Below are positions 43,497-52,841 of a stretch of DNA of 64,000 nt, piece by piece. Every line of letters starts with the position of its first letter. Position 1 is the first letter of the stretch. This DNA is from Longibacter salinarum (GTDB lineage: Bacteria > Bacteroidota > Rhodothermia > Rhodothermales > Salinibacteraceae), in the NCBI RefSeq assembly GCF_002554795.1, contig NZ_PDEQ01000004.1:186001-250000 (forward strand), in the 5' to 3' direction. The translations under genes were made by a program, and so were the position numbers. The notes beneath the pieces were generated by a model. The model saw only the letters and a program-made list of their open reading frames with translations. It ran no database searches and was not told where the DNA came from.

Positions 43497-45275
43497 ATGG
43501 CGAAGGTTGACGTCGAAATGCCCAAAATGGGCGAAAGCATCACCGAAGGCACTGTCATCGTCTGGCATAAGCAGCCAGGAGATGAAGTGGAGCAGGACGA
43601 GACGCTCCTGGAAATCGGCACGGACAAGGTCGACACGGAAGTCCCCTCTCCGGAGGCCGGCACGCTGACCGACATCCTCGTCGAGGAAGGCGACACGGTC
43701 GAAGTGGGCACGATCATCGCCCGCATCGAAACCGAAGCCGATGCCGCTGTCGATGCGAAACCGTCCGACGCACCGGAAGACTCCGCCGGTGAAGACCAAG
43801 AGGCGGCCGTGGATGACCAGGAAGCAACCGAGGTTGCCAAAGAGCAGGCCGACGCTGACTCTGCCGGCGCATCGGGAGGCGAAGACCACGAGATCGTGAT
43901 GCCCAAAATGGGCGAATCGATCACCGAGGGAACGATTATCGCCTGGCACAAAGAGATCGGCGACGAGGTCGATCTTGATGAGACGATCCTCGAGATCGGT
44001 ACCGACAAGGTAGACACGGAAGTGCCCAGCCCGGCCGCTGGCGTTCTAAAAGAGCGTCTCGTGGAGGAAGGTGAAACTGTGGAAGTCGGCACCCCGATCG
44101 CCGTCATCGGAGCCGAAGCGGGCTCCGCTGCTCCACAGCCGAGCACACCAGCTCCCGACACGTCGGACGAGTCGCAGCAAGAAGCCACACAGGAAGCTGC
44201 AAGCGCTCCGACCTCCGGAGACGGTGCCGTAGCCTCAGGCGAACCGATCGAACGTCGTGGGCCGGATGGCAGCTTCTACTCGCCTCTCGTCCGCTCTATC
44301 GCGGAGGAAGAAGGTCTGTCCATGAGCGAGCTGCAGTCCATCGAAGGTTCGGGCCGCGAAGGTCGCGTCACGAAGGAAGATGTGCTCGACTACCTTGAAA
44401 CCCGCGAGGCCGGCGGCACACAGACGGCAACGGAGACCGCTGCCCCGGCGACGGCCCCGAGCCGCCCACCGCGCCCCAGCCGTCCGGCGCCGAGCGGCGG
44501 AAGCGGCTACAAGGTGGAGGAAGGCCCCAGCGCCGACGAACTCCGCCAGCGGTACGACGAACGCGTCGAGATCGTCGAGATGGACCGGATGCGCAAGATC
44601 ACGGCCGAGCACATGGTCCGCTCCAAAGCGACCTCGGCCCACGTCACCAGCTTCGCCGAAGCCGATGTGACGGGCCTCGTCAAGTTCCGCGAGAAGAATA
44701 AGCAGGCCTTCCAAGAGCGCGAAGGCATCAAACTCACCTTCACACCCTTCTTCGTGAAGGCCGCCGTCGAAGCCCTGCGTAAGCACCCGGTCCTGAATGC
44801 GTCGGTCGAAGGCGACAAGATCGTCATGAAGAAGGACTACCACGTCGGAATCGCCGTGGCCATCGGCAAGAAAGGGCTCATGGCTCCGGTTATCCGCGAC
44901 GCCGGCAACCTGAACCTGACCGGCCTGGCGAGCAAGGCTGCGAACATCGCTGACCGGGCCCGTAACAAGCAGCTTCAGCCGGACGAACTGCAGGGCGGTA
45001 CGTTCACCGTGACGAACATCGGCTCCCTCGGCTCGCTGATGGGCACGCCGATCATCAACCAGCCGCAGGTCGGTATCCTCGCCACCGGCGCCATCAAGAA
45101 GCGCCCGGTTGTCGTGGAGGATCCGGACATGGGCGACGTGATCGCGGTCCGTCACATGATGTACCTCTCGCTGAGCTACGACCACCGCATCATCGACGGC
45201 TCGATGGGGTCGAGCTTCCTCCACACGGTCGTGGACGAACTCGAGTCGATTTCGCCGGACGACAACCTTCTCTAA
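43497..45275 (+). CDS. 2-oxo-acid dehydrogenase E2 (dihydrolipoamide acyltransferase)
   Basis: Core acyltransferase of a 2-oxo-acid dehydrogenase complex in the cytosol. The ATG at 43497 begins the first lipoyl domain (592 residues). There are two lipoyl domains (about 1-80 and 130-210), both with the lipoylated Lys in GTDKVDTEVPSP. The peripheral-subunit-binding domain is at about 258-302 (YSPLVRSIAEEEGLSMSELQ), then a Pro/Ala-rich linker and the catalytic domain (about 350-590) with YDHRIIDG. Acidic linkers are prominent. It could serve 2-oxoglutarate, pyruvate or branched-chain substrates; two lipoyl domains with KMGESITEG favour the succinyl or branched-chain types. No E1 or E3 gene is adjacent. 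Confidence 0.95.
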   Translation: MAKVDVEMPKMGESITEGTVIVWHKQPGDEVEQDETLLEIGTDKVDTEVPSPEAGTLTDILVEEGDTVEVGTIIARIETEADAAVDAKPSDAPEDSAGEDQEAAVDDQEATEVAKEQADADSAGASGGEDHEIVMPKMGESITEGTIIAWHKEIGDEVDLDETILEIGTDKVDTEVPSPAAGVLKERLVEEGETVEVGTPIAVIGAEAGSAAPQPSTPAPDTSDESQQEATQEAASAPTSGDGAVASGEPIERRGPDGSFYSPLVRSIAEEEGLSMSELQSIEGSGREGRVTKEDVLDYLETREAGGTQTATETAAPATAPSRPPRPSRPAPSGGSGYKVEEGPSADELRQRYDERVEIVEMDRMRKITAEHMVRSKATSAHVTSFAEADVTGLVKFREKNKQAFQEREGIKLTFTPFFVKAAVEALRKHPVLNASVEGDKIVMKKDYHVGIAVAIGKKGLMAPVIRDAGNLNLTGLASKAANIADRARNKQLQPDELQGGTFTVTNIGSLGSLMGTPIINQPQVGILATGAIKKRPVVVEDPDMGDVIAVRHMMYLSLSYDHRIIDGSMGSSFLHTVVDELESISPDDNLL

Positions 45276-49236: not shown

Positions 49237-50817
49237 CTACCCGGACAAATGCTCCCGAACGGCTTCCTCAATTCTCGCGGCAAGGGCGTCTGCTTCTTTC
49301 CGAGTCTCGAAGGCCAAATACAATGGCGGATGAAGGCGAGGATCTGGAGCGTCCGGGGTCGTGCTGAAATCATCGAGTTCCTGGCCGATGGAAGCCAGAG
49401 CATCACTCAAGCCGCCGAGCGAAATCGGTTCGTCCAGGTCGACGCGGATGTCGTATCCGAGTCGGGGCCGATCCATATCCGCAACTGCAACCGTAATGCC
49501 CTTCACTTGCTCGGCCGGTACATCGATAAACGTTTTGCCTGACATAGCTGCTCGCACCCGCCCCTCCGCCACCTGTACGCTGATTACATCGCCCTTCGGG
49601 TAGAGAGTCTTATACAGGAAAAACGCGGTAAACAGCCCCACCACACCGTGCGCGATCCACATTCCAAGCATCTCATCGGAGGAGATCGCGCTGAGGGACT
49701 GCATGTACCCGATATAACTGTGGATGGCGACGAGAACGAGAAGCACGATAACGGACATGGTACGTGCGCCTCGATAGCGGACACTTGATCCTCGGATGAC
49801 CGCCTCGAACGCTCCGTTCTGTGTGATGTCGACATCGTCAAGGTGATCGATCTCAACCGCACGATGGGTTTGATCGAACTGCAGCGGAGACGCACGTTGC
49901 GCTGTGCCCGATCGACCGGATGCATCAATGCTCGATGCGTCAGCACCTCCATCGGATTGCGTGAAAACGGGCAGCTGGAACGTGACGGCGCCGTTCCAGC
50001 CGTCATCATGGACCTGCAGACGCCAGTCCACGCGGGGGCGTCCCTCCGGATCGGGGGTTGCCGGTGGTTGGTCGACCGGAAGGGTAAAGCTGAACCGAAT
50101 CAGGTTCCCGCTACTTCCGTGGGGTTGCACTTGGACATCCGCTTCATCTCGCCATGGCGTGCGTACGTCCCCGGACGCCGTTCGGACACGGCAACTGATG
50201 TTCACGCGAACGGTCTCGCCGGACTCCAGGTCGAGATCCGGTCCCGTGATTTGCCCTCTAATTGCATCTCCGGTCACGGCCGGTACCGCATCCAGCCGAA
50301 CCGTCGCGGTATCCCCGGCGGCTTCCACCTCTCCTCGGGCCCAGTCGTCGCGCACAGCCCACGGACGATCCGGTGCCTGATCAAGTTGGCGAGCACGCGC
50401 GGACCGGCGTCGATAGACGCTCCAGGCCGAGACGCCCAGCCAGATGCAGATACCGACCATCAGCGCCGCGATACTTCCAAGAATGTAGATCCCGGGATGC
50501 AGACCTGTCTTCTGATAAACGGCCCAGGCCCCGAACAGGGCACCTCCGCCCATGCTCCCGCAGGCCAGAGCCCCGAAAAGTCCGTAAGCAAATTGCCCGG
50601 TGATTCCCGAGTCGTTGGCCGACCAAGTATACGCTGGCATTCGGGTATCTGGTGTCATCGAGGTACCATCCGATAATTGCACGTCCGACGGATAAGTGGC
50701 AAGTTCCCAATTGCCATTATGAACATCAATATACAACGATCGTCCGCGACACCGGGCACAACGAGTCTGTAGATCCGTTATTGATTCGTATCTGGATCTG
50801 AACGTCAACCCACACAA
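49237..50817 (-). CDS. unknown membrane protein with possible N-terminal zinc-binding segment
   Basis: A frame of 526 residues from a TTG at 50817; the first ATG is at 50658 (473 residues). The upstream part keeps Cys at residues 2, 20 and 23 (CARCRG), like part of a zinc ribbon, so the longer version may be real. Two hydrophobic segments (about 75-100 and 108-132) are followed by a soluble domain (about 155-310) with beta-rich segments such as GDAIRGQITGPDLDLESG and VDWRLQVHDDGWNG. A second hydrophobic pair lies at about 358-410, and a C-terminal cytosolic part with FIDVPAEQVKGITVAVADMD. I recognise no family with certainty; the middle domain resembles DUF3592-type membrane proteins. Confidence 0.75.
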   Translation of the reverse strand: MCGLTFRSRYESITDLQTRCARCRGRSLYIDVHNGNWELATYPSDVQLSDGTSMTPDTRMPAYTWSANDSGITGQFAYGLFGALACGSMGGGALFGAWAVYQKTGLHPGIYILGSIAALMVGICIWLGVSAWSVYRRRSARARQLDQAPDRPWAVRDDWARGEVEAAGDTATVRLDAVPAVTGDAIRGQITGPDLDLESGETVRVNISCRVRTASGDVRTPWRDEADVQVQPHGSSGNLIRFSFTLPVDQPPATPDPEGRPRVDWRLQVHDDGWNGAVTFQLPVFTQSDGGADASSIDASGRSGTAQRASPLQFDQTHRAVEIDHLDDVDITQNGAFEAVIRGSSVRYRGARTMSVIVLLVLVAIHSYIGYMQSLSAISSDEMLGMWIAHGVVGLFTAFFLYKTLYPKGDVISVQVAEGRVRAAMSGKTFIDVPAEQVKGITVAVADMDRPRLGYDIRVDLDEPISLGGLSDALASIGQELDDFSTTPDAPDPRLHPPLYLAFETRKEADALAARIEEAVREHLSG

Positions 50818-50905: not shown

Positions 50906-51862
50906 ATGTCTGATGCCACACGTTCTTCTTCGAATGGTGCGGGCCTGGAGCTGTCGCTCCGGAACCTGAGAGACCATCTCAAGGAGTTTCTCACCGACTA
51001 CCTGAAGGATAAAAGCAAGGAAACGGTCGGCACGTATCGCCGCTCGCTCAACACCTTCGAGAAGTGGTTTATCACGACCCAGGGTAAATTCCGGTTTACG
51101 GAAGACGACATCCGGAACTACAAGACGTACCTGATGGAAGAGCGCGAGCTCAGCCAGGTCTCGGTTTCGACATACCTGACGGCCCTCCGCCGCTTCTGCC
51201 AGTACCTGACCGATATCGGCAAGCTAGAGGAGAACCCCGCGAAGGCCGTCAAGGGCAACCGCCGCCCGGACTCCCACTCGCGTGAGGTGCTAACAGAAGC
51301 TGATATCGAAGCACTAAAGGAGGCGCTCGACGAGGAATCACAGATCGACAAGCGGGACGTCGCCATCGTCTACCTGATGCTGTACGCAGGTCTCAGCGAA
51401 ATCGAAATCGTTCGCGCGGACGTCGAGGACCTGGAGCACACGCTCATGGGCCCGGTCCTCAGAGTGCAGGGGAAGGGCCGAACGGTCAAAGACCAGCAGG
51501 TCCCTCTGGATGCTCCCGTCGTCGGAAAAGTGGAACAGTACCTGGATACCCGAAGCGGGCTACATCCAGACTCGCCGCTATTCGTCAGCCATGGGCACCG
51601 CTCGGAAGGCAAACGCCTGAACACACGCTCCGTCCGGAGTCGGATCAACGGCTACCTTAAGGCGTCAGGCGTGAAGCGTCGAGGCGTCACGCCGCACAGC
51701 CTCACGCACACCGCGGCCCTGATCTGGCTGAACAACGACATGCCGCTGGAAGAGGTGAAGCAGCGTATGCGGCACGGGACGCTCGACACAACGATGATCT
51801 ACTACAAAAAGCAGGGACTTCTAAAACGCGACCCGGAGGAGCTTGCTTCGGAATCCGAATAA
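50906..51862 (+). CDS. tyrosine recombinase-fold protein lacking both catalytic arginines
   Basis: A 318-residue protein of the phage-integrase/XerC-D fold, started at the ATG at 50906. The N-terminal SAM-like core-binding domain (about 20-115; EFLTDYLKDKSKETVGTYRR) and C-terminal catalytic domain (about 130-310) are complete. The lysine hairpin GKGRTVKDQQVPL, His264 in PHSLTH, His290 in MRHGTLDTT and the nucleophile Tyr299 are in place. However, the first Arg (GLR box) is Ser164 in YAGLSEIE, and the second Arg (HxLRH box) is Thr267 in HSLTH. Both arginines activate the phosphate in known members, so this protein is probably unable to recombine DNA normally. No attachment site or phage gene is near. 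Confidence 0.92.
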   Translation: MSDATRSSSNGAGLELSLRNLRDHLKEFLTDYLKDKSKETVGTYRRSLNTFEKWFITTQGKFRFTEDDIRNYKTYLMEERELSQVSVSTYLTALRRFCQYLTDIGKLEENPAKAVKGNRRPDSHSREVLTEADIEALKEALDEESQIDKRDVAIVYLMLYAGLSEIEIVRADVEDLEHTLMGPVLRVQGKGRTVKDQQVPLDAPVVGKVEQYLDTRSGLHPDSPLFVSHGHRSEGKRLNTRSVRSRINGYLKASGVKRRGVTPHSLTHTAALIWLNNDMPLEEVKQRMRHGTLDTTMIYYKKQGLLKRDPEELASESE

Positions 51863-51928: not shown

Positions 51929-52841
51929 ATGCCCTCTTCCCGCAGTGCTCTCGCACGGTACAGGCGACACGTACGTGGGAGCTGTTCTCCGTCGCACGTC
52001 CTGGCGACACCGCTAGCCTGCTGGTTGATGATTTCATCATCGGCCTGATCCTGCTGAATGTCGTCGCCGTCATCATCGAGACAGTGCCGTCAATTCAACG
52101 GAGCTATAGATCTGCACTGTACATCTTTGAGATTTTCAGTGTCGTCGTCTTTACGATAGAATACGCGGTGCGAGTGTGGTCGTGCACGGAAAGCCCCGCC
52201 TACGACCGCCTCGTTCGCGGGCGCCTTCGGTTTATGCGAACCCCACTCGCTGTTATCGATGTCCTCGCCGTCGCCCCGTTCTACCTTCCACTCATCGGCA
52301 TCTCGCTCGTTGGGGACCTTCGTGTCCTCCGCGCCCTGCGCCTGCTCCGGATTGTCTGCGTAGCGACACTCGGTCGCTACTTGCCAGCGTTCCTTTCACT
52401 GACGCGCGTCGTCAAACGGAACAAAGAGGAGTCGTGTTGAGCATTTCGGTTTTGGCGATTTTGCTCGTGATTGCCGCATCGCTCATGTTCTACGCGGAGC
52501 ACGAGGCCCAACCGGACGTCTTCTCTTCCATCCCGGCAACCATGTGGTGGGCGGTGGCGACCCTTACAACCGTCGGATATGGGGATGTCTATCCCGTGAC
52601 GGTCGTCGGAAAAATTTTAGCCTCGATTGTAGCGATTCTCGGTATCGGGCTGTTCGCTCTCCCTGCCGGAATCCTTGCCTCTGGACTACAGGAGGAGTGG
52701 TCTGACATGACCCGTAGTGAGCAACGCACAACGTCGACCGCGCTATCTAGCTCGCAGCATGGAGAGAACCGATCGTCCTCTCGAAATGATGTGTGTCCGC
52801 ACTGCGGTCTACCCCTCGATCAATCGGTGGCCGAAGGATAG
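51929..52841 (+). pseudogene. voltage-gated K+ channel gene broken by two frameshifts
   Basis: The parts of a Kv-type channel are present in three frames. The start (MPSSRSALARYRRH, ATG at 51929) is in one. From about 51973 the next frame reads TWELFSVARPGDTASLLVDD and includes membrane segments S1-S5 with the voltage-sensor helix RVLRALRLLRI, until a stop at 52438-52440. From about 52430 a further frame continues with VLSISVLAILLVIAASL, the selectivity filter TTVGYGD, S6 and a C-terminal zinc knuckle CPHCGLPL. One lost base near 52430 (KEE then VLS) and another shift near 51966-51975 explain it. Sequencing error cannot be excluded. Confidence 0.75.

Follow-up and report, generated by a model that had tools for sequence, protein, structure and literature searches.

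A tyrosine-recombinase-like protein lacking both catalytic arginines is conserved across the Rhodothermales and is probably a DNA-binding protein

Why does a bacterial chromosome keep a full-length tyrosine recombinase gene whose product has lost both catalytic arginines? The question is raised by a frame in the window (the whole stretch of 64,000 nucleotides of Longibacter salinarum DNA that was analysed here), which runs from ATG to TAA without any internal stop (Table 1). Its product, called here the R-less protein, matches the Pfam domain Phage_integrase at residues 128-302 (2.6e-20), and a SAM-like N-domain is also matched. In an HMM alignment to E. coli XerD (1a0p), S164 falls on the Arg of the GLR box and T267 on the Arg of the HxLRH box, and K190, H264, H290 and Y299 fall on the catalytic Lys/His/His/Tyr. 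The earlier note had described a full-length frame that keeps these four residues and lacks both catalytic arginines; the frame and the alignment bear this out, and the loss proved to be a property of the whole order rather than of one copy. The set R-K-H-R-H/W-Y of active recombinases is thus absent from the R-less protein, with S164 and T267 in place of both arginines order-wide.

By fold, the protein belongs to the tyrosine recombinase superfamily, on the basis of its Pfam domains and of the PDB matches of its AlphaFold2 model. The model, built from 35 sequences (pLDDT 82, pTM 0.64), has the complete tyrosine-recombinase fold. Its best PDB match is XerH 5jjv (Z 19.1, rmsd 3.5, 280 residues aligned), followed by XerA, Cre and Tn1549 Int, and two recombinase-fold regulators are also among the matches: SroF (Z 15.7) and YopR/MrpR (Z 12-13).

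Table 1. Features of the R-less gene and its surroundings, in positions of the window
Feature	Position	Strand	Basis
2-oxoglutarate dehydrogenase E2 (part read), ancestral upstream neighbour	44001..45272	+	synteny in related loci; Pfam 2-oxoacid_dh (L058 orthologue)
Conserved upstream element CCGTTATTGA(C) over -35-like TTGACA, candidate operator	50775..50784	+	conservation in Tyr-retaining orthologues
R-less tyrosine-recombinase-like protein, 318 aa	50906..51862	+	ORF; PF00589 and SAM-like domain; order-wide orthologues; AlphaFold2 model
N-terminal core-binding (SAM-like) domain and linker, residues 18-127	50957..51286	+	per-region conservation
Ser164 (codon AGC), replaces catalytic Arg I	51395..51397	+	HMM alignment to XerD
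Lys190, beta-hairpin lysine, kept	51473..51475	+	HMM alignment to XerD
HxxR box as His264-Ser-Leu-Thr267, Thr for catalytic Arg II	51695..51706	+	HMM alignment
Thr267 (codon ACG)	51704..51706	+	
Arg287, clade-specific Arg/Lys, one helical turn before His290	51764..51766	+	comparison with outgroup
His290 and Tyr299 (nucleophile position), both kept	51773..51802	+	HMM alignment to XerD
Tyr299 (codon TAC)	51800..51802	+	

Based on a class-wide search, orthologues of the R-less protein were recognized, one per genome, in 104 of the 114 genomes of the order (Rhodothermales-type), and the ten genomes without one include several incomplete ones. The close set contains it in 36 of 41 genomes (its own genome counted), mostly at identities of 59-94%, the most diverged being 38%; named records with an orthologue are Salinibacter, Salinivenus, Longimonas and Rhodothermales. 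The earlier note had proposed aligning homologues to learn whether the Ser and Thr are conserved, and they are: among 44 non-redundant members of the order, position 267 is Thr in all 44, and position 164 is Ser in 41, Ala in two, Thr in one and Arg in none. K190, H264 and H290 are invariant in the same 44 members, and position 299 is Tyr in 43 and His in one. All 18 intact outgroup recombinases have Arg at both 164 and 267. The frames are open in nearly all orthologues, and pairwise dN/dS, taken from pairs with dS of 0.06 to 0.54, is 0.03-0.18, so that relaxed selection, which according to the earlier note would speak against a retained role, was not detected. Over the same nine genomes, the mean identity of the R-less protein is 70.6%, compared with 58.7% for an intact recombinase (family B, below), and it is the higher of the two in 34 of the 36 pairs. 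The substitution of both arginines is therefore fixed across the order, and the protein is under purifying selection.

When the search was widened to the phylum, 83 of 394 sampled genomes (the own class included) had a homologue, with several further Bacteroidota-type classes represented; this persistence beyond the order is less regular and patchy. In a tree, the 69 members group together as a single clade with support of 100/99.9. Its sister group includes plasmid recombinases with an intact RKHRHY set, from Limosilactobacillus, Streptococcus and Staphylococcus, and also G522, a genome of the phylum. Outside the class, Arg I is missing and Arg II present in most homologues, and many of them have Phe or Tyr for His264 and Ile or Leu for His290. 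Arg II is Thr in the order and Val in G169 and G170, which belong to another order of the same class. One family within the order (G038 and G172-G184), referred to here as the fully dead family, has also lost His264, His290 and mostly Tyr299, and its dN/dS is 0.12-0.17. By parsimony, Arg I changed twice (loss at the base and regain in one subclade), Arg II five times and Tyr299 four times. The R-less clade thus descends from intact recombinases, and further residues were lost stepwise in sister lineages. The earlier note had counted homologues with normal arginines, combined with relaxed selection on this copy, as evidence against a retained role; homologues with both arginines were found only outside the order, in G460 (another class) and in the plasmid sister group, and they are not accompanied by relaxed selection. 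A separate observation concerns a subclade with Arg at 164 (L247 from G460, L249, L251 and L252), which is nested among Ser-bearing relatives; G460 carries the full RKHRHY set, and a regain of the catalytic arginine in this subclade is possible.

The gene order around the R-less gene is kept order-wide: HppA (a pyrophosphatase pump), 2-oxoglutarate dehydrogenase E2, the R-less gene, an outer-membrane-type gene on the other strand, and secA. Here HppA, SecA and the outer-membrane type were named by reading the sequences, and E2 was tested with Pfam. In the window, two genes, one for a CheB/CheR/histidine-kinase protein and one for a protein of 526 aa, are inserted between E2 and the R-less gene. 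This synteny is unchanged even in the lineage without Tyr299, and it is lost in the Rhodothermus-like G026, where the R-less gene lies at another locus. The neighbours (HppA, OdhB, PorQ-like and SecA, with leuS in other families) are stable but uninformative on function. The R-less gene is chromosomal and vertically inherited. A reading as a mobile element was also considered, and is ruled out by the fixed locus, the single copy, the lack of any confirmed relative on viral contigs, and the distance of the plasmid (about 33-34% identity) and phage (26-32%) proteins that are related to it. Downstream in the window (51990-52841, plus strand) lies a gene of a voltage-gated-type potassium channel that is split by a frameshift near 52425, with S1-S4 and S5-pore-S6 in separate frames; this may represent a pseudogene, a sequencing error or a programmed shift.

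Upstream of the gene, 36 of 43 distinct Tyr-retaining loci have an 11-mer, CCGTTATTGAC, no more than 250 bp from the start and with one mismatch allowed (30 of them exact), against 0.06 in shuffled sequences. It stands 33-212 bp from the start codon, in a single orientation throughout, and overlaps a TTGACA-like -35 hexamer; in half of the loci it has TTGATT 17 nt further on. The element stays with the R-less gene in G026 despite the lost synteny, and the exact 12-mer TCCGTTATTGAC occurs only once, upstream of the R-less gene, in the complete Salinibacter genomes G008 and G012. Under the same limits (250 bp, at most one mismatch), the 11-mer was found in 0 of 14 loci of the fully dead family and in neither of two outgroup genomes, and homologues in other classes lack the upstream element; the correlated losses of the element and of Tyr299 are one evolutionary event. 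The conservation of CCGTTATTGAC may come in part from the promoter alone, through the -35-like hexamer, and another regulator could bind it. A wider regulon was also considered and rejected, the exact matches examined elsewhere in relatives being mostly inside coding genes. In the Salinibacter-type G008, TCCGTTTTTGAC is present several times and is possibly part of a repeated element.

The reading that we prefer, with a probability of roughly 0.6, is that the R-less gene is a domesticated recombinase that no longer cleaves strands and persists because its product binds specific DNA sequences, most likely as a transcriptional regulator that acts at least on its own gene. Without the two arginines the scissile phosphate would not be held, and the DNA would not be cleaved. 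The conserved N-domain and linker would bind DNA, and CCGTTATTGAC would be the binding site, so that the bound protein would cover the -35 region and repress its own promoter. We infer such an autorepressor because of the analogy with MrpR, a phage repressor compared below, and because the helices thought to face the DNA are conserved together with the linker: in the order, conservation is high in helix B, in helix D (14 of 20 positions invariant) and in the NPAxxVKGNRRP linker (14 of 24), and from the fold both helices are presumed to contact DNA. Tyr299 and Lys190 may have been retained for DNA binding or structure, as has been reported of Tyr304 in MrpR. The near invariance of His264, His290 and Tyr299 in Tyr-retaining members is, however, unusual if the active site is useless.

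An alternative is that the R-less protein binds one half of a dif-like site as a non-catalytic partner, so as to activate or position an intact recombinase, as in an XerC/XerD-like heterotetramer; we regard it as unlikely. It draws on the state of the Xer system in these genomes, where an FtsK gamma domain is present in 38 of the 41 relatives, yet none of the 41 passes the NCBIfam cut-off for XerD. Ten Phage_integrase matches were counted in the own genome, which is 99.8% complete, and none of them passes the cut-off for XerC or XerD; the canonical pair that the earlier note suggested looking for was accordingly not recovered there, although intact Xer-type recombinases are present. The best XerC match of that entire genome is the R-less protein itself, for which XerC is in turn the best NCBIfam match, at 133.1 bits against a cut-off of 335.15 (XerD, 111.2 against 329.6). 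A possible intact partner also exists, since the genomes examined for them contain intact recombinases of family B and/or C, and the sites of XerS and XerH adjoin their own recombinase genes (PMC5357621), like the conserved element here. However, the element is without a clear two-arm dif architecture, and the canonical dif pattern, with up to one mismatch, is absent from the own genome and from 39 of 40 relatives, the 41 genomes giving a single match with one mismatch, though a divergent dif may be present. The intact partner would moreover have to vary: family B is intact in Rhodothermus-like genomes and most other families and degenerate in Salinibacteraceae, where it adjoins family C, which is intact. 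The gene also persists in one family with most of its catalytic residues changed. Because an active recombinase is available in B or C, the R-less protein need not resolve dimers itself.

Two other recombinase genes deserve a note. In Salinibacteraceae, catalytic His and some further residues have also disappeared from the family B gene (L009, G000:C1:470270-471082, minus strand; next to the intact family C gene L006, C1:469149-470030, plus strand), which makes it a second, apparently independent dead recombinase. An integrase-like frame of the own genome (L010, G000:C3:143596-143955, plus strand) has Asp where the GLR box has its arginine, and its C-terminal tail is long and of low complexity.

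The earlier note also raised a divergent chemistry, in which the R-less protein would be an active recombinase or topoisomerase with Arg287 (and Arg246) standing in for the missing arginines, and this we consider very unlikely. Position 287 is Arg or Lys in 100, 93 and 94 percent of the three groups of the clade and in 0 of 18 intact outgroup recombinases, the Lys, His, His and Tyr are intact in the order, and IntCTnDOT offers a precedent (PMC8138268). Arg287 could in principle substitute, but both it and Arg246 are still present in the lineage that has lost His264, His290 and mostly Tyr299, and because it is retained in this fully dead family it was set aside as a catalytic replacement. Two arginines rather than one would have to be replaced, and the residue-by-residue loss in sister lineages also speaks against a rearranged active site. 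Finally, an integrase that was functional until recently and is now decaying would explain the loss of essential catalytic residues, but hardly any credence is left for it, because fixed substitutions, near-universal open frames, dN/dS well below 1 and single-copy orthologues throughout the order, with persistence at the level of the phylum, rule out a pseudogene. The suggestion of the earlier note that the gene is selected for another role rather than decaying thus holds.

More broadly, and only tentatively, an ancient domestication of a plasmid-type recombinase may have given rise to a chromosomal Bacteroidota-Rhodothermota family of proteins that bind DNA site-specifically without cutting it. 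They would have one chromosomal site, at their own promoter, and would serve as a core regulator or as a half-dead partner of Xer, while the active site erodes one residue at a time in the various lineages and Arg I is regained in one. Dead tyrosine recombinases are already known as phage repressors (MrpR) and as Crypton-derived genes of animals. In the literature searched, nothing relevant was found on Xer or tyrosine-recombinase pseudoenzymes of Rhodothermales, nor any description of an order-wide dead-recombinase family on bacterial chromosomes with graded loss and its own candidate operator. The R-less family offers a natural series in which the active site is lost in steps while selection continues, and the candidate operator at its promoter is suited to a binding assay. 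Genes annotated as XerC or integrase in these genomes may recombine nothing. As the order has FtsK gamma and lacks a protein passing as XerD, the question also arises of which recombinase resolves its chromosome dimers.

Among known systems, the closest intact relatives found are the tyrosine recombinases of small Bacillota plasmids (WP_016497258.1 and WP_011161220.1), which lie in the sister group at 33-34% identity; unlike the R-less protein, they are plasmid-borne and have the full RKHRHY. XerC/XerD, XerA and XerH share its fold and domain order, whereas it differs from XerC/XerD in scoring far under the equivalog cut-offs, in missing both arginines and in that canonical dif was not found. 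IntDOT, the integrase of CTnDOT, is likewise linked to Bacteroidota and lacks Arg I at the usual place, and it is active, with another, downstream Arg standing in (PMC8138268); the R-less protein is without Arg II as well. In animals, Crypton-derived DUF3504 proteins (ZMYM, QRICH1 and KIAA1958) are also tyrosine recombinases that have been domesticated and have no catalytic site (PMC3212892); they differ in being eukaryotic, in having lost Tyr and Arg II, and in being fused to other domains.

The most similar case is MrpR (YopR), the master repressor of the Bacillus prophage SPbeta, which has the same fold, replaced arginines, and the Lys and Tyr kept. Its catalytic Arg and His residues are changed to Ser, Val and Asn, recombination activity is absent, a 15-bp element mediates repression, and Tyr304 is important for binding to DNA (PMC10516654). 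SroF of phage phi3T, known here by its PDB title alone, is another recombinase-fold match, and the R-less protein resembles both in structure at a sequence identity of 12-14%. Unlike MrpR, the R-less protein keeps both catalytic His, and whereas MrpR and SroF are phage proteins with a prophage regulon, the R-less gene is chromosomal and single-copy, at an ancestral housekeeping locus, with one candidate site at its own promoter. It is likely of independent origin.
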